Source: Roseiconus nitratireducens
GTDB taxonomy: Bacteria; Planctomycetota; Planctomycetia; Pirellulales; Pirellulaceae
Assembly (NCBI RefSeq): GCF_008629675.1
Contig: NZ_VWOX01000010.1
Span: 248,001-312,000, forward strand
Direction: 5' to 3'
DNA: 64,000 nt
Position 1 is the stretch's first letter, and each line of letters opens with the position of its first letter. The notes under the pieces were generated by a model, which did no database searches, was not told the origin of the DNA, and worked only from the letters and a program-made list of their open reading frames with translations. Below, piece after piece: positions 3,395 to 53,102 of this stretch. The translations under genes were made by a program, and so were the position numbers.

Positions 3395-4627
3395 TTACGC
3401 AAACACTTCGGCCGGCTCGAATTCCTCGCCGACAATGGGAGCCGGATCGGTTTCCAGCCAGTTTCGAAGCACCGCCGCGTAAACCCGGCGGAAATCGGTG
3501 TGGTGCTTCAGGTCACCGTCCTGCAGGTCGGTCAGGCTGGGATGACCGCCGATCAAACCTGGCTTCAGGCCACCGCCGCACAGGAACATGGGCCCGGCAG
3601 CGCCGTGATCGGTGCCTTCGCTGGCATTCTCGGCGACGCGTCTTCCGAACTCGCTGAAAGTCATCACGCACACGCGATCGTGATGATCGTGTTGTTGCAG
3701 GTCGCGGATGAACGCGTTGACGGCGTCACTCCATTGCCGCAACAAGATGGCGTGCGTGTCGCGTTGTTGGGCGTGCGTATCGAATCCGTCCAGCTGCACG
3801 TAGTAGACCCGTGTCGTCAAACCGCTATCGATCAGCTGGGCCACGATGCGAAGCTTTTCCGCCAGCTCCGATTCCGGGTAGGCGATGTCAGAACGATAGC
3901 CCCTGGCAGCTTTGCGAACGCGGTCACTTGCCGCCAACGCGCTCTCGGTGTTGGACTGGACAAAGCCCAGCAAGCTGTCGGCCGAGTCGTCGATCGAGGA
4001 GGTTTCTCGGAGCAGTTGAGAAAGCGATCCCGTCGGGTCGCCGCGCAGCTGAAACTCTTCTAACCGTTGGACCGTCGGGACGGGAATGTTTCGCGACGCG
4101 AGCGCGAAAGGTTGTTGTCCCCGTCCAAGGTGCATTGCGGGGACGTCACCGCCGGATCGCCCCGCAGCCGTTTCCAGGTAGCGGCCCAACCAGCCTTCGG
4201 TACGGGATTCCGTTTTACGCCGACAGGTGTGCCAGATGTCCATCGACTCGAAATGGGAACGATTCGGATGCTCGTATCCCACGCCCTGGATGATCGAGGC
4301 CATCGCGTCGTCGATCAATTCCGCAATGCCCGTCAGGGAGGGATGCAACGCCAGTGAGTCATCCAGCCGCAACGCATCGGCGGACCCGATCCGCAGTTTC
4401 GGACGGGACCTTTGGTAGGCTTCGTCCGCGTAAGGAATCACCGTGTTCAATCCGTCATTTCCTCCGGTCAACTGGACCACCACCAAAATGCGTTCTCCCG
4501 CTGGCGGAACACTATCGGCAGCCTGGCAGAGAGCGGCCGGGACGACGCTGCCGATACCCATGGCAAGCGATCCGCCGACGGAACACTTGATGAAATCACG
4601 CCGGTCAAGCAGAGAGGGATGTGACAT
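3395..4627 (-). CDS. DUF1501 family protein with Tat signal
   Basis: Protein of 410 residues of the DUF1501 family, a sulfatase/phosphatase-like fold common in planctomycetes and nearly always next to DUF1800. The N-terminus carries a twin-arginine signal (LLDRRDFIKCSVGGSLAMGIG), so it is probably exported folded. Typical family segments are VVVQLTGGNDGLNTVIPY, GVGYEHPNRSHFESMDIWH and VMTFSEFGRRVAENAS. I chose the ATG at 4627, just before the Tat motif; the open frame extends 38 codons upstream into the preceding spacer. It lies 52 bases after the DUF1800 gene on the same strand and is probably co-transcribed with it. The biochemical role of the family is not established; a role with extracellular polymers is often proposed. 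Confidence 0.92.
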   Translation of the reverse strand: MSHPSLLDRRDFIKCSVGGSLAMGIGSVVPAALCQAADSVPPAGERILVVVQLTGGNDGLNTVIPYADEAYQRSRPKLRIGSADALRLDDSLALHPSLTGIAELIDDAMASIIQGVGYEHPNRSHFESMDIWHTCRRKTESRTEGWLGRYLETAAGRSGGDVPAMHLGRGQQPFALASRNIPVPTVQRLEEFQLRGDPTGSLSQLLRETSSIDDSADSLLGFVQSNTESALAASDRVRKAARGYRSDIAYPESELAEKLRIVAQLIDSGLTTRVYYVQLDGFDTHAQQRDTHAILLRQWSDAVNAFIRDLQQHDHHDRVCVMTFSEFGRRVAENASEGTDHGAAGPMFLCGGGLKPGLIGGHPSLTDLQDGDLKHHTDFRRVYAAVLRNWLETDPAPIVGEEFEPAEVFA

Positions 4628-4679
4628 GGATCCGAATCCGAAAGGGTGGAATGTCCGGTGGAACGATCGGCAAGGTTCG

Positions 4680-6047
4680 TCAACCGAGTTGGCATTCGGG
4701 GAGCGAGACAAATTGGTGCAGCAAATCGCGGAATCCGCCATCCTCCGCGCTGTTGCCGCTGGCGAAAGATTGCAACAGTCGGGAACGGACGGGGGATGGC
4801 AGGGGATGTGGCAGCAGGCGAGTTTCCCATTGCTGCAGCGCCTGCTGCGGTGTTTCGATTCCCTGGTCGCCCAGGTATTCCTGCAACGAGTTTCCGGCGA
4901 AGGCTGTGTTGGAATCGTTCAGGACTTGTTGAAACAGGTTCGCCCGGCCGAGCAAGGTGGACGAATTGATCCACGCGCGGCCCCCGTCCCAGCCTTTGAC
5001 ATTGGGCGGATAGAACAGGCCCTGGCCGATGTCGCGGAGACCCCGGGCAAGCAACTCGGTGTTGGTGGTTCCTTGCAGGCTGCGAAGTGTTCCGACGAGC
5101 GATTCGACCGGCGACTTGATTTTGCGGCCGACCGAAAGCGAGGAGAAAAACAGATTGCTGCTGAACAGTTTTTGCAACACCGGGGCGATGTCGTATCCTC
5201 GGTCACGAAAGGTTTCTGCCAGCGGCATCAACAATTTATCCGGGGGAGCCGGTTCGTCGCAGACAAAGAATCGGAACCACTTTCGGCACAGGAACAACGG
5301 CATCGAGGGCTGGTCGATCACGATCTCGACCGCGGCTTCGCCGTCAAAGGCTCCCTCCTTCCCAAGCAACCGTTTCACGCCGTTGTCATGCTGATAGCGG
5401 TTTTTTCGAAACCGGTCGTTCTTGATTTCCCAGCCGGTAAAGCAGCGTGCCAATTCCTGCACGTCTTGTTCGCTGTAATGGCCTTCGCCCAAACAAAACA
5501 ATTCCATCAACTCACGCGCGAAGTTCTCGTTCGGATGTGCTTTGCGGTTGGAAGCCGAATCCAGGTAGATCAGCATCGCCGGATCTTTCGCAATCGCCTG
5601 CACCAGTTCGGAGAAGTTCCCCAAGGCCTGCTGTCGCAGCAATCGGTTCTGCTGCCACATCATGGACGCATCTTTCACTTTGTCCGCACCGGTTGCGAAG
5701 TGCCCGTGCCAAAACAACGTGGCCTTTTCCAACAGTTGGGTCGGAGTCAGCAACAGCCGATACACCCAAGCGGCGGACAACGTCATGGGATCGCCGCCAG
5801 CGAGCACCGTTTTGGCCAGCGCATCTGCGACGGTACGGAACTCGGACGTTTCCTGATTCTGTGCGACCAGTTGGGCGACGGCTTCGGCCGGATCCAGCTG
5901 CGCGGCCCGGTCCAGCTGGGACACGTCGGCGCCGAATCCCGCGCGGCGGTACAGATGCGCCGCCCCGCGGCGGTCCCATGGTTGATCCGCTGACGGCTGA
6001 AACGGCTGCCAGGCCCACTGTGGATCGACCGATTCAAGTGAGTTCAT
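4680..6047 (-). CDS. DUF1800 family protein
   Basis: Protein of 455 residues of the DUF1800 family. Characteristic segments: AAHLYRRAGFGADVSQLDR near the N-terminus, TLFWHGHFATGADKVKDA in the centre, and NFARELMELFCLGEGHYSEQD. The ending RLLQSFASGNSAEDGGFRDLLHQFVSLPECQLG is also typical. No Sec or Tat signal is evident in this copy. It lies between an upstream secreted-protein gene (6-base gap) and DUF1501 (52-base gap), all on the reverse strand, so the three are probably one operon. DUF1800/DUF1501 pairs are a planctomycete hallmark, but their function is unproven. Confidence 0.92.
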   Translation of the reverse strand: MNSLESVDPQWAWQPFQPSADQPWDRRGAAHLYRRAGFGADVSQLDRAAQLDPAEAVAQLVAQNQETSEFRTVADALAKTVLAGGDPMTLSAAWVYRLLLTPTQLLEKATLFWHGHFATGADKVKDASMMWQQNRLLRQQALGNFSELVQAIAKDPAMLIYLDSASNRKAHPNENFARELMELFCLGEGHYSEQDVQELARCFTGWEIKNDRFRKNRYQHDNGVKRLLGKEGAFDGEAAVEIVIDQPSMPLFLCRKWFRFFVCDEPAPPDKLLMPLAETFRDRGYDIAPVLQKLFSSNLFFSSLSVGRKIKSPVESLVGTLRSLQGTTNTELLARGLRDIGQGLFYPPNVKGWDGGRAWINSSTLLGRANLFQQVLNDSNTAFAGNSLQEYLGDQGIETPQQALQQWETRLLPHPLPSPVRSRLLQSFASGNSAEDGGFRDLLHQFVSLPECQLG

Positions 6048-49362: not shown

Positions 49363-49905
49363 ATGTTCAAACTCCAACTGCCATTCCCACCGTCAGTCAA
49401 CACCTATTGGCGACACGTCGGCAACCGAGTCTTGGTCAGCAAGAAGGGCCGGCAGTATCAAGCCACCGTCAGCTCGTTGCTGGATCGTAAGAACACCAAA
49501 ACGCTCGATGGCGAATTGATTGTTGATATTCGTTTAGTCCCGCCCGATCGTCGTCGCCGCGATGTCGACAATTCACTCAAAGCGTTGTTGGACGCGATGC
49601 AGTTCGGCGGAGCGTATCACGACGATGCCCAGATCGTTCGTTTGACGGTGGAGAAGCATCAACCCGATCCCGATGATCCGCGGGCCGAAGTAGTCGTCCA
49701 GCACGTCCCGGCACCCATCGGTGAAGCCGGATACAGGACTTGTTTGCGTTGCGATGAAGCGTTTGAAAGTGATGGGCCGGGAAACCGCATCTGCGTTTCG
49801 TGTCGGCAAATCAATTCGATGTTCGGTGACCTCGTCGAAAGCGAGCGAGGAAAGAAGCGACACAACGGCGAAATCATAACGGAGCGAGAGGAGGACTTGG
49901 TTTGA
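49363..49905 (+). CDS. RusA-type Holliday junction resolvase with zinc-binding tail
   Basis: Protein of 180 residues. The N-terminal part is RusA-like: LPFPPSVNTYWRHVGNR, then PDRRRRDVDNSLKALLDAM and YHDDAQIVRLTV, with the conserved Asp positions (DVDN..DD). It resolves Holliday junctions or branched DNA in phage recombination. After residue 115, a Cys-rich region TCLRCDEAF..GNRICVSCRQI adds a CxxC..CxxC zinc motif not usual in RusA. The stop overlaps the start of the helicase gene by four bases. Confidence 0.88.
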   Translation: MFKLQLPFPPSVNTYWRHVGNRVLVSKKGRQYQATVSSLLDRKNTKTLDGELIVDIRLVPPDRRRRDVDNSLKALLDAMQFGGAYHDDAQIVRLTVEKHQPDPDDPRAEVVVQHVPAPIGEAGYRTCLRCDEAFESDGPGNRICVSCRQINSMFGDLVESERGKKRHNGEIITEREEDLV

Positions 49906-52643
49906 AACTCCGCGATTACCAACAGGCAGCCGTCGAAGCGGTCTACAACCACCTCCGCAGTCGCGACGACAATCCAGTCGCCGTGCTGCCGACCGGTGCC
50001 GGCAAATCGGTTGTGCTGGCGAAGATCGCGTCGGACGCAGTTCAGCAGTGGAACGGCCGCGTTCTGATCTTGGCCCACGTTAAAGAGCTGCTCGAACAGA
50101 ACGCTGACAAGGTCCGGCGGCTGTGTCCCGATATCAAGGTTGGACTGTACTCGGCTGGGCTGAAGAAACGTGACACGAACACACCCGTGTTGGTCGCCGG
50201 CATCCAGAGCATTCACAAGCGAGCTTGCGATCTTGATCCGTTCGACTTGATCGTAGTTGATGAATGTTTTCCCGAAGGCACCCCAGTGTCGACGCCGCGA
50301 GGTGATATTCCCATCGAGCAGTTGCATGTGGGCCAGCCGGTGCATCATGCACTTGGCGTTGGCAAGATTGAAGCCATTTCGGCTCGTACCACCAAACATT
50401 TGATCGAGATTGAGGTCGAGGATGGAACAGCTATCCGTTGCACAGCAAACCACCCGATCTTCACCGAAGAAGGCTGGGTCAACGCCGCGTCCTTGGAGAT
50501 GGGATCGTGTGTATTCCGCCGAGAAGATGTGCTTGCAATGCAGCGAGCCGTTTCGGCCGAGGGTCTATCTACATGCCGACGGGACTCCACGCCACTGCAT
50601 GTCAGAAGGAGAGTGGAAGCGAAAGATGTATTGTTCCCCGACATGTGCGGGATTGGCGAAACGAAAACCAGTCGCCAAACAACCCAAACGCGTGCCTTGG
50701 CGAACGATTGCAGAACACGGGGCGATCAAACACTGCGAGTGTTGCGGGATAGTGATTCGCCCGTGGATCAAACGCGATGCAAAAGGGACGGTGATTACAT
50801 GCATGGCCCGAACGGCATGGAGAAAGCAGCGTTTTTGCTCGATATCCTGTTCGAAGAAAGTTCAGAACCCAATGTTCGATGCTGCGACGAGAGACAAGGT
50901 CAGCAACGCATTGAAAGCAATTGGGCATCAGCCGATAGAGCGTGGTGGGAACGGTCAACTGACGATAGATCAGTCGATGCTGCAGCACGCTCTCGGTGCC
51001 GATTGGCTGCCGGAGTATCCGGTTCCGACAGGAGACGACAACCAGTCGGGGCTTCCCAACCACATCAAGATCGATTTGGCAAACCCGGAATTGAGATTGG
51101 CGATCGAGTTGGACGGCCGATCTCACGGCGGAAGAACGAACCGCCGGAGAGATCGGAGGAAAACTCGTTTCCTTCTCCGCTGCGGGTGGTCGGTATTGAG
51201 ACTGTCAAATGCGAAAGCCCAGTCGCTGTGTACAACTTGCAAGTCAGCGGACACCCTTCGTACTACGCTCATGGAGTTCTTTCACATAACTGTCACTTGA
51301 TCAGTCGCGCTGGCGACGGAATGTATCGCCAGTTCTTGGCTGATTGCAAAGTCATCAATCCGCACGTCCGCGTGATTGGATTGACCGCGACACCGTTTCG
51401 ACTGGACAGTGGGATGATCTGTTCCCCGGATCATTTCCTGAACAGCGTCTGCTACGAGATCGGAATCAAGGAATTGATCCGAGACGGTTACCTGTGCCCG
51501 CTGGTGTCGAAAGCCGGCATCAACCGAGCGGACTTTTCGAGCGTTCACACCCGGGCCGGCGAGTTTGTCAGTGAAGAGGTCGAGCAACTGGCAGGCGACG
51601 ACGCGCTCGTGTCGGCCGCATGTGCCGAGATCGTGGAACTGACGGCTGATCGTCGGGCCGTGTTGATCTTCGCAACGTCCGTGGCCCACGGGCGGCAAGT
51701 CGTCGAAACGTTACGAGATAATCACGGAATCGAGTGTGGCTTTGTCACCGGCCAGACGCCGGCGGAAGAACGCGATGCATTGTTGGCCCGTTTTCGGGGA
51801 GACCAACCGGCCCAGCGTTCTGCGGTCGGAACGCTATTTGACACCGGCAACGGAACGACCGGCCAAACTCCCCTTCGATTCCTCTGCAACGTCAACGTAC
51901 TGACAACCGGATTCGACGCACCGCGCGTTGATTGCGTGGTCATGCTGCGTCCAACAATGTCACCGGGCTTGCTTTATCAATGCGTCGGTCGTGGATTTCG
52001 TTTGCACCCCGATAAACAGAACTGCCTGGTCCTCGACTTCGGCGGCAACATCGAACGGCACGGTCCGATCGACCAGATCAAACCGAAGGAAAAACAACTT
52101 CGCCCCGGCAGCGAACCGCCAGCGAAGGAATGCGAGAAGTGCCATGCCCTGGTCGCTTGCGGATATGCGAATTGTCCCGAGTGCGGTCATCCGTTCCCGC
52201 CGCCGGATCGCGAATCCCACGATGCCCAGGCGAGCGACGCCGGAGTGCTATCCGGAGAGGTCACAGACACAGAATACGAAGTTCGAGACGTAATCTTCCG
52301 CATTCACCGAAAACGTGATGCCGATGAAGACGCGCCGCGGTGTTTGCGAGTCGACTACATGATCGGGCTCGATCATTGGCAAAGCGAGTTTATCTGTATC
52401 GAACACTCCGGCTACGCCAGACGCAAAGCCGAAGCGTGGTGGCGTGAGCGTTGCCTTGATCCTTGTCCGACAACGGCGGAGGATGCTTTGGAACTCGCTG
52501 ATGTCGGTCTATTAGCGACTCCAGAATCGATCACGGTCCGATCAATCTCCGGTCAGAAGTACGACCGGATCATCAAACAGTCACTTGGTGAAATTCCGAG
52601 TTTTGCAATGACAAACGACGAGGACGATCCAGTTCCCTTCTAG
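49902..52643 (+). CDS. DECH-box superfamily II helicase interrupted by an intein
   Basis: The precursor has 913 residues; removing the 342-residue intein gives a helicase of 571. Extein features: MKLRDYQQAAVEAVYNHL (Q motif-like), VLPTGAGKS (Walker A, residues 28-36), VVDE joined to CHLISRAG (motif II, DECH), VIGLTATPFRLD (motif III), then the second RecA-like domain with TTGFDAPRVDCVVMLRPT and QCVGRGFRLHPDKQ (motif VI). A zinc region (CEKCHALVACGYANCPECG) follows at the C-terminus of the helicase. It resembles phage and type III-restriction-like helicases acting in replication. The intein sits exactly between E and C of DECH, after residue 121. Without splicing, the enzyme would be inactive. 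Confidence 0.93.
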   Translation: MKLRDYQQAAVEAVYNHLRSRDDNPVAVLPTGAGKSVVLAKIASDAVQQWNGRVLILAHVKELLEQNADKVRRLCPDIKVGLYSAGLKKRDTNTPVLVAGIQSIHKRACDLDPFDLIVVDECFPEGTPVSTPRGDIPIEQLHVGQPVHHALGVGKIEAISARTTKHLIEIEVEDGTAIRCTANHPIFTEEGWVNAASLEMGSCVFRREDVLAMQRAVSAEGLSTCRRDSTPLHVRRRVEAKDVLFPDMCGIGETKTSRQTTQTRALANDCRTRGDQTLRVLRDSDSPVDQTRCKRDGDYMHGPNGMEKAAFLLDILFEESSEPNVRCCDERQGQQRIESNWASADRAWWERSTDDRSVDAAARSRCRLAAGVSGSDRRRQPVGASQPHQDRFGKPGIEIGDRVGRPISRRKNEPPERSEENSFPSPLRVVGIETVKCESPVAVYNLQVSGHPSYYAHGVLSHNCHLISRAGDGMYRQFLADCKVINPHVRVIGLTATPFRLDSGMICSPDHFLNSVCYEIGIKELIRDGYLCPLVSKAGINRADFSSVHTRAGEFVSEEVEQLAGDDALVSAACAEIVELTADRRAVLIFATSVAHGRQVVETLRDNHGIECGFVTGQTPAEERDALLARFRGDQPAQRSAVGTLFDTGNGTTGQTPLRFLCNVNVLTTGFDAPRVDCVVMLRPTMSPGLLYQCVGRGFRLHPDKQNCLVLDFGGNIERHGPIDQIKPKEKQLRPGSEPPAKECEKCHALVACGYANCPECGHPFPPPDRESHDAQASDAGVLSGEVTDTEYEVRDVIFRIHRKRDADEDAPRCLRVDYMIGLDHWQSEFICIEHSGYARRKAEAWWRERCLDPCPTTAEDALELADVGLLATPESITVRSISGQKYDRIIKQSLGEIPSFAMTNDEDDPVPF
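50265..51290 (+). other. intein within the DECH box of the helicase
   Basis: 342 residues (122-463 of the precursor). Block A: CFPEGTPVSTPRGDIPIEQL, Cys 1 being the N-terminal nucleophile. Block B: GTAIRCTANHPIFTEEGW with the TxxH. Block F/G: AVYNLQVSGHPSYYAHGVLSHN, ending in His-Asn, followed by Cys of the C-extein. All residues for splicing are present. The stretch between the N-terminal splicing domain (to about residue 204) and the C-terminal one (from about residue 427) has no LAGLIDADG motif and low protein-like character in this frame; in the +1 frame the same DNA encodes a homing endonuclease. The linker remains free of stops in both frames. Confidence 0.93.
50527..51300 (+). CDS. nested homing endonuclease (Vsr-like, EDxHD type) in the +1 frame of the intein
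   Basis: ORF in the +1 frame relative to the helicase; about 257 residues from the ATG at 50,527 (other starts possible from 50,410). Two zinc-finger-like halves: CLQCSEPFRPR..MYCSPTC and CECCGIVIRP..RFCSISC. Then the typical phage homing enzyme text NPMFDAATRDKVSNALKAIGHQPIERGGNG, ALGADWLPEYPVPTG and HIKIDLANPELRLAIELDGRSH. The nuclease core is ELDGRSH..RRDRRKTRFLLRCGWSVLRLSN, i.e. E, D, H, D/K and GW, as in the Vsr-like EDxHD family. The last part overlaps the intein block F/G and ends eight bases beyond the intein. Ribosome site weak (GAGAAG). It could be expressed by its own start or by frameshift. Confidence 0.8.
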   Translation: MCLQCSEPFRPRVYLHADGTPRHCMSEGEWKRKMYCSPTCAGLAKRKPVAKQPKRVPWRTIAEHGAIKHCECCGIVIRPWIKRDAKGTVITCMARTAWRKQRFCSISCSKKVQNPMFDAATRDKVSNALKAIGHQPIERGGNGQLTIDQSMLQHALGADWLPEYPVPTGDDNQSGLPNHIKIDLANPELRLAIELDGRSHGGRTNRRRDRRKTRFLLRCGWSVLRLSNAKAQSLCTTCKSADTLRTTLMEFFHITVT

Positions 52644-52655
52644 CGATTAATCCCA

Positions 52656-53102
52656 ATGCAAAAAACATGTTTTAAGTGCAGACACACCAAACCGCTTAGC
52701 GAATTCTATCGGCACTCGAAGATGGCTGATGGGCATCTTAACAAGTGCAAATCCTGTGCGAAATGTGATGCACGCATCCACCGTGTTTCAAAGATTGATC
52801 AGGTCAACAAATACGATCGTGAGCGCGCACATTTGGACCACCGCAAAAACGATCATCGAGAAAGGCAGCGGCAATACCGCACGAAGTATCCCGAACGGCA
52901 GGCAGCATATAACGCGGTAGCGAGAGCGATTAAGTCCGGAAAACTATGCAAACCAAGTGAGTGCGAAGGATGCGGGAGCAAAGCGTCTGTGCAAGTACAT
53001 CATGAAGATTATCTGCGAAAGCTCAATGTGATCTGGCTATGTCAAAAATGTCATTCTCAACATCATCACGTGCGGGATTTCGTGACGGGAGAGTGGCTCT
53101 AA
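52656..53102 (+). CDS. free-standing HNH endonuclease (homing-type)
   Basis: Protein of 148 residues. N-terminal zinc motif CFKCRHTKPLSEFYRHSKMADGHLNKCKSC, a helical linker, then a C-terminal HNH: CEGCGSKASVQVHHEDYLRKLNVIWLCQKCHSQHH. This type is common as free-standing homing nucleases in phages. It sits between the helicase (12 bases downstream of its stop) and the primase gene, near the intein. It may act on a neighbouring site in related phages; this is inference. Confidence 0.86.
   Translation: MQKTCFKCRHTKPLSEFYRHSKMADGHLNKCKSCAKCDARIHRVSKIDQVNKYDRERAHLDHRKNDHRERQRQYRTKYPERQAAYNAVARAIKSGKLCKPSECEGCGSKASVQVHHEDYLRKLNVIWLCQKCHSQHHHVRDFVTGEWL

Follow-up and report, generated by a model that had tools for sequence, protein, structure and literature searches.

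A probable mobile intein in a phage-type helicase gene of Roseiconus nitratireducens with a putative homing endonuclease in the +1 frame

A 64,000-nucleotide stretch of the Roseiconus nitratireducens genome (contig NZ_VWOX01000010.1, positions 248,001 to 312,000, hereafter the window) contains a gene for a RadD-like phage DNA helicase that is interrupted by a contiguous intein. The DNA of this intein, including its C-terminal splicing block, also encodes a Cys-rich nuclease of the EDxHD type in the +1 frame. The element is most probably a mobile intein, and its dual-coded homing endonuclease would be produced from a translation start inside the intein; we assign this reading a probability of roughly 0.85. 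We infer translation of the +1 frame, splicing, cutting and homing.

The helicase and its intein

The intein is inserted between the E and the C of the DECH motif, with Cys1 at 50265 and Cys+1 at 51291. It passes the NCBIfam cut-offs of TIGR01445 and TIGR01443, the Pfam Intein_splicing model scores 31.7, below its cut-off of 35.8, and residues C1, T60, H63, Y333, H341 and N342 are invariant across 55 aligned inteins. The helicase matches ResIII (2.3e-20) and Helicase_C in the domain library, as well as phrog_16, and it matches the RadD model NF053632 at E 3e-86, yet below the cut-off of that model. An empty site is provided by a single homologue, the intein-free helicase of phage MW202867, which has a contiguous DECHL and is 37% identical to the window's spliced helicase. 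An earlier note on this DNA had described a complete intein between E and C of DECH, a spliced helicase of 571 residues and a nuclease drawn from the same bases as the splicing block, and all three descriptions hold; the motifs and family matches lie within one helicase open reading frame (ORF), and 51180 to 51290 is dual-coded with nuclease residues 253 to 290. The features, all on the + strand, are as follows.

49902 to 52643, +: RadD-like phage DNA helicase ORF with a contiguous intein; precursor of 913 residues, 571 after splicing
49902 to 50264, +: N-extein, ending in VVDE, placed by comparison with the contiguous DECHL of the intein-free phage helicase
50265 to 51290, +: intein of 342 codons, from Cys1 to His341-Asn342, placed by TIGR and Pfam matches and conserved motifs
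50412 to 50415, +: putative Shine-Dalgarno sequence GAGG, 6 nt 5' of the ATG at 50422; duplex energy -6.3
50422 to 51300, +: +1-frame nuclease gene, 292 codons and TGA, with the stop inside the C-extein; alternative starts at ATG 50527 and ATG 50626
50442 to 50453, +: intein block B, T60xxH63, overlapped by the nuclease N-terminus if the start is 50422
50530 to 50646, +: putative nuclease Cys-rich finger 1 (C37, C40, C71, C75), from the cysteine positions
50734 to 50850, +: putative nuclease Cys-rich finger 2 (C105, C108, C139, C143), each cysteine present in 65 to 66 of 67 alignment rows
50866 to 50937, +: NPM...R.K.S..L segment, from alignments
51067 to 51210, +: EDxHD catalytic core (K216, D218, E229, D231, H235, D244, W256, R260, N263), from alignment conservation
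51180 to 51290, +: intein C-terminal splicing block, dual-coded as above, with slowed substitution among relatives
51291 to 52643, +: C-extein, starting CHLISRAG, placed by the same DECHL comparison

The overprinted nuclease

The +1 frame is open from 50404 to 51297 (298 codons) and is closed by a TGA at 51298 to 51300, leaving about the first 46 intein codons outside the open stretch. The TGA is supplied by the C-extein codons for CHLI, 10 bases past the end of the intein, and the same stop position recurs in five other loci (L024 and L094 to L097). Within the catalytic core, D218, D231, H235, D244, W256, R260 and N263 are kept in 67 of 67 rows, E229 in 66 (with D in the other) and K216 in 65. 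The window product matches DUF559 above the cut-off and MTES_1575 below it, and both families are matched at E 0.01 or better by 71 of 71 members of the nuclease family. Among the library matches of these 71 members there is no HNH family, and Vsr does not match the window nuclease at E 1. The segment at 50866 to 50937, which we take to be NUMOD3-like, has no match in the library searched.

Several details of the earlier note are modified by these results. Its two Cys-rich fingers and EDxHD core agree with the conserved cysteine and catalytic residues (the fingers being an interpretation of the cysteines), but the core is nearer to the I-Bth0305I/DUF559 type than to Vsr. Both frames were said to lack stops over 340 codons, which is true of the intein frame but not of the +1 frame. 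Finally, the 257-residue +1 product of the note does start at ATG 50527, but the ATG conserved in close relatives, 35 codons further upstream at 50422, is the more probable start and would give 292 residues.

Start positions were compared by an index that counts intein codons from 0, in which 52 denotes the second base of the 53rd codon, or window position 50422. A +1 ATG is found at index 52 in all 24 first-sample loci nearest the window (L014 to L038 with both splicing blocks, several of them near-identical), and in only 8 of 73 other loci. A second sample comprised 15 loci, with contigs already used left out and groups picked by similarity; an ATG is found at index 51 to 53 in 11 of these, and L170 has one at index 56 with the same SDG motif. 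Outside the window's group (W group), the best-scoring starts lie mostly at about index 72 to 140, often 3' of a GAGG-like sequence. From this conservation, nuclease translation likely starts at 50422. A test for third-base T in the codon behind the conserved ATG was rejected as circular, the 26 loci listed having been picked for that ATG; five of the 26 had been put aside as not W-like (L042, L077, L081, L090 and L107).

Relatives of the nuclease

A single-sequence viral scan with the window nuclease gave no matches; these came from the annotated phage collection and then from alignments. A tblastn search of the nuclease against annotated phages returned 40 records, and 13 of the 20 matches listed fall under helicase-named features. 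Six phage records were examined, from Corynebacterium, Pseudomonas and Vibrio phages, and in each of them the match is itself unannotated and falls within a single contiguous ORF that is annotated, in its +1 frame. Further scans added 6 viral loci, then the best 80 of 97 confirmed viral loci, and 57 genome loci. An all-frame scan covered 150 loci, including the window, from annotated phages, IMG/VR contigs and bacterial genome contigs.

In 43 of the 150 loci (L108 to L150) the nuclease match is weak (score 34 to 62) and no intein block was found. Both splicing blocks are present in 102 of the remaining 107, the window included, and in all 102 the nuclease lies in the +1 frame of one open ORF; an in-frame nuclease and intein halves in separate ORFs were each found in 0 of 102. 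Two further loci (L037 and L060) are truncated by contig ends and preserve one block each, again with the nuclease in +1. At 95% DNA identity, the 102 loci form 77 clusters. The absence of an endonuclease domain from the intein frame, reported in the earlier note, is general among these loci, whereas the suggestion that such an overprinted nuclease looks uncommon has to be abandoned: +1 overprinting is the rule in this EDxHD family. None of the 102 loci combines a retained intein with a disrupted +1 frame, a weak result in that the loci were found through the nuclease.

The insertion site is DE/CH in most loci, with DE/CQ in L042 and L044 and DE/SS in L069; in L090 and L104 the insertion lies just 3' of the DE motif. 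Judging by gene types assigned by eye, the nuclease family is not confined to helicases, since +1 elements also occupy DE/C sites of terminase-like genes (L077, L078, L081, L091, L093 and L105). Among 392 genomes of the window's phylum, three have a nuclease match at E 1e-15: the window's own genome, G157 (locus L231, in the +1 frame of an intein) and G270 (a partial match that covers only the catalytic core).

In L103, a free-standing relative of the nuclease (3788 to 4399) runs up to roughly the beginning of a helicase that has no intein (4363 to 5853) and reads DESH in place of DECH. This locus may represent a target that resists the nuclease, or a state that preceded the intein.

Selection on both frames

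The stop content of the intein frame was compared with expectation by redrawing only synonymous nuclease codons according to each locus's own extein usage, with 2000 draws. For the window, the intein frame has 0 stops over 224 codons against a mean of 9.3 expected, and 0 of 2000 draws were open; in the third frame, which served as a control, 8 stops occur where 3.5 are expected. Intein-frame stops are absent from 77 of 77 clusters, with 1.7 to 23 expected per locus, and log10 P sums to -227 when the P of each locus is floored at 1/2000. In the third frame, stops are as frequent as expected or more so in most loci and slightly fewer in a few. In the +1 frame, the control stretches contain 181 stops against 160 expected (intein codons 1 to 45) and 231 against 271 (C-extein codons 21 to 80). 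The C-terminal splicing block has 0 against 44.2 and W-group codons 53 to 82 have 0 against 9.6, figures that are partly circular, as these stretches were picked where the nuclease ORF runs.

Substitutions were counted by intein codon position in seven W-group pairs, with linker position 1 corresponding to the nuclease wobble base. At positions 1, 2 and 3, the counts are 57/35/140 in codons 1 to 51, 379/169/137 in the linker and 28/13/26 in the C-terminal splicing block. The corresponding rates are 0.16/0.10/0.39 in codons 1 to 51, which code for the intein only, 0.12/0.12/0.25 in codons 52 to 78, 0.34/0.15/0.12 in the linker and 0.12/0.06/0.11 in the C-terminal block; the two exteins give 0.25/0.13/0.53 and 0.26/0.16/0.50. 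Eleven pairs, which include near-duplicates such as L017/L026 with L018/L020, agree with this pattern. The same comparison between the window and its nearest relative, L231, gives 13/6/38 in codons 1 to 52, 140/90/85 in the linker and 12/6/7 in the C-terminal block, and identities of 51% for the nuclease, 70% for the N-terminal block, 55% for the C-terminal block and 24% for the intein-frame linker.

According to the position counts, constraint falls on the nuclease frame within the linker, on the intein frame within the 5' part, and on both frames within the splicing block. What the intein frame displays across the linker is avoidance of stops and not conservation of amino acids (mean identity 0.19). 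Purifying selection thus appears to act on both frames of the shared DNA, and the comparison of codon-position constraint proposed in the earlier note, through wobble patterns and stop avoidance, favours both frames.

Structure models

A Hint fold in the window intein is well supported by its model, in which the splicing parts mostly have a predicted local distance difference test score (pLDDT) above 90 (about 95 to 98 for residues 1 to 90 and about 92 to 98 for 311 to 342). The model has 36 PDB matches at E 0.001 or better, and all 50 among the matches listed are inteins or other Hint domains. The gp41-1 intein ranks first in Foldseek, but no kinship with it is claimed, as other inteins match better by sequence profile. 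The linker mostly has a pLDDT below 60, except for a helix at 181 to 200 (80 to 83). The overprinted linker therefore looks largely disordered in the intein frame of this model, and would be free to follow the nuclease.

The nuclease model has a mean pLDDT of 78.6 and a predicted template modelling score of 0.53, with residues 1 to 34 below 50 and most of 101 to 280 above 90. It matches I-Bth0305I (3r3p) in Foldseek with a probability of 1.00, TMt 0.66 and E 0.012, and 3hrl with a probability of 1.00 and E 0.030. By E-value, the first rank is held by a mitochondrial ribosome protein. A profile search of the nuclease finds 3hrl ('Endonuclease-Like Protein') at E 3.5e-11.

Proposed mechanism and alternatives

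In the proposed mechanism, ribosomes would read the whole helicase frame through the intein, the two parts of the Hint domain (residues 1 to about 100 and about 305 to 342 of the intein) would fold around the largely disordered linker, and self-excision of the intein would restore the helicase. A second start within the intein, at ATG 50422 or further downstream, would yield the free Cys-rich/EDxHD nuclease. This nuclease would be expected to cleave helicase genes that lack the intein, at the codons for DECH, and the whole element would then be copied into the cut site during repair.

Several results weigh against this mechanism or temper the evidence for it. No intein was found around the nuclease in 3 of the 107 loci (L058, L073 and L103). 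Beyond the E of 0.012 for 3r3p, no PDB match of the nuclease model reaches E 0.001, and the profile match of the nuclease to 3r3p is at E 0.14. The near-identical second-sample loci L165 to L167 are without the conserved ATG. For the window, an automatic start scorer favoured ATG 50626 (dG -9.2). Across the 77 clusters, the strength of the start sites has a median of -6.6 against -4.4 for random +1 starts in exteins, and 16% of such control starts are as strong as the nuclease starts. The start at 50422 is no more than likely, this strength being only moderately above controls and the scorer having picked another ATG. The position counts stand in for a formal dual-frame ratio of nonsynonymous to synonymous rates (dN/dS). 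Identities of the nuclease and the splicing blocks are correlated (Spearman 0.60, against 0.25 and 0.27 for each with the extein) over 69 of the 77 clusters, 8 clusters with other extein kinds having been dropped beforehand. The correlation counts as indirect evidence for mobility, but is partly built in because both share the DNA of the C-terminal block.

The alternative that survives best, although it is improbable, is that a programmed +1 ribosomal frameshift gives rise to the nuclease, which would then be fused to the N-terminal part of the intein, with no internal initiation. The frame is always +1 in the EDxHD class and start sites vary across the family, as such a frameshift would allow, but the W group has a conserved ATG with a purine-rich sequence upstream, several other loci have a GAGG-like sequence 5' of an ATG at index 87 to 91, and the three relatives that are intein-less show that no intein part is required for the nuclease to exist.

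It is more doubtful still that the nuclease is real while the intein frame across it is untranslated, leaving in effect two separately translated intein halves. Split inteins with EDxHD nucleases between their halves are known, and in L212 and L215 the N-terminal half (IntN) and a fusion of the nuclease to the C-terminal half (IntC) occupy different frames. The lack of intein-frame stops in every cluster, where 1.7 to 23 per locus are expected, is difficult to reconcile with an untranslated frame, as is the presence of a single ORF in 102 of 102 loci.

A chance or relic +1 frame, with only the intein being of consequence, is very unlikely. In G+C-rich DNA an alternative frame may stay open over 200 codons by chance, and a 174-residue antisense ORF covers part of the same region of the window. 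Against this, all 71 family members match DUF559 and MTES_1575, the catalytic residues are nearly invariant, linker substitutions gather on the nuclease wobble base, and the +1 ORF and the whole arrangement are kept even at 28 to 39% G+C (L057, L061 and L063). An assembly or sequencing error that shifted an in-frame nuclease out of frame, the base error contemplated in the earlier note, has nothing in its favour and is hardly credible given 102 loci from many sources, all +1 and none in frame.

Other overprinted cargo and genomic context

The mobile intein with a dual-coded endonuclease may not be the only arrangement of this kind. A scan based on the intein, a sample biased towards relatives of the window intein, gave at least 80 loci with 78 new identifiers, some on contigs already sampled. 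These 78 loci include 35 with a +1 EDxHD nuclease, 3 with another nuclease-like +1 ORF (L176 and L184, which match MTES_1575/DUF559, and L192), 21 whose +2 frame holds a long ORF, 9 with an ORF on the antisense strand, 7 mini-inteins that leave no room for a nuclease, 2 split inteins, and L180, which has an antisense ORF (by eye) and an interrupted intein frame. The loci of the two main additional classes are listed here.

+2 HNH_3 loci: L182, L187, L188, L191, L194 to L196, L201, L202, L205, L207 to L209, L213, L214, L216 to L218, L223, L224 and L228
Antisense nuclease-like ORFs on intein linkers: L173, L177, L180, L186, L189, L197, L198, L199, L220 and L225

HNH_3 is matched in 19 of 19 +2 ORFs scanned (two near-duplicates having been left out), and Cys pairs are present. 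In the intein frames of this class, where 44 stops are expected, there are none; the probabilities for single loci range from 0.001 to 0.78. Seven of the 8 antisense ORFs scanned match nuclease families (L197 weakly, and L177 none), and the codons of all 8 line up exactly with those of the intein frame; of codons that would create a stop in the intein frame, 34 are expected and none occurs. The 8 antisense-class inteins, read in their own frame, gave no match to a nuclease family.

Overprinting of nucleases on inteins thus seems to recur, with +2 and antisense ORFs that are nuclease-like by sequence. There are about even odds that it represents a general, repeatedly evolved mode of mobility-gene carriage (EDxHD in +1, HNH in +2, and antisense EDxHD- or HNH-like), that out-of-frame cargo is the norm in the group of the window intein, and that fractured split-intein genes descend from such contiguous elements.

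Two gene layouts in this sample are more complex. The gene in L173 has two inteins, the first being the antisense one and the second carrying an EDxHD-like nuclease in frame (score 45), which is the canonical layout in a distant relative. In L212 and L215, from 3707, one complete intein is followed by a second in two pieces, in which IntN stops and a nuclease-like ORF, lying in a different frame, is fused in frame to IntC.

The neighborhood of the window helicase is a phage-type replication module, with genes for a Sak4-like annealing protein, SSB, RusA, the helicase, an HNH protein and a primase. A small endonuclease-like gene (phrog_2340) is located directly 3' of the helicase, at 52656 to 53102.

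Relation to known systems

The fractured genes reportedly described by Dassa et al. in 2009 have split inteins with free EDxHD nucleases between the halves. They resemble the window in the position of an EDxHD nuclease between intein halves, but consist of separate ORFs, whereas in the window the nuclease is overprinted on a single uninterrupted ORF. I-Bth0305I (3r3p, with the deposition title 'Mobile intron protein') shares with the window nuclease the fold of the catalytic domain and an acidic/His core, a likeness that is weak by E-value. It belongs to a mobile intron and is not known to overlap a protein-splicing frame.

Canonical inteins have the same splicing motifs as the window and likewise carry homing-type cargo between the splicing blocks. 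Their homing endonuclease domain is in frame (PMC11855218) and is part of the spliced-out protein, whereas the window cargo would be a separate product of another frame. The same paper describes an out-of-frame HNH in an insertion of the ShiLan phage methylase, in which its authors found no splicing domain and which they expect to stay in the protein (PMC11855218). Another methylase with an out-of-frame HNH is mentioned in PMC12613952. ShiLan and the window share an endonuclease hidden in another frame of an ORF-preserving phage insertion, for which homing is proposed; ShiLan has an HNH in the third frame, whereas the window has a full set of intein motifs and an EDxHD nuclease in +1 that overlaps the splicing blocks. 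Among the matches listed from titles and abstracts of CC-licensed PMC articles, a coverage that leaves bioRxiv preprints outside and takes in few subscription journals, none reports an intein that harbours an endonuclease out of frame or antisense. Among the systems compared, the nearest precedent is the ShiLan HNH, which is not in an intein.

Significance

The nuclease of a standard intein forms a domain of the protein that is spliced out, so that a single product serves both functions. In the present element the same bases, those of the splicing blocks included, carry both a selfish gene and a gene for protein splicing, and overprinting uncouples the expression of the two products yet locks their sequences together. 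As the DNA is shared, a frameshift that disabled the nuclease within the shared stretch would break the helicase precursor as well. The element is a natural case of dual-coding evolution, and explains intein linkers that resemble meaningless hydrophilic sequence. It also represents a class of nucleases that gene annotation misses, and suggests a route from contiguous to split inteins.

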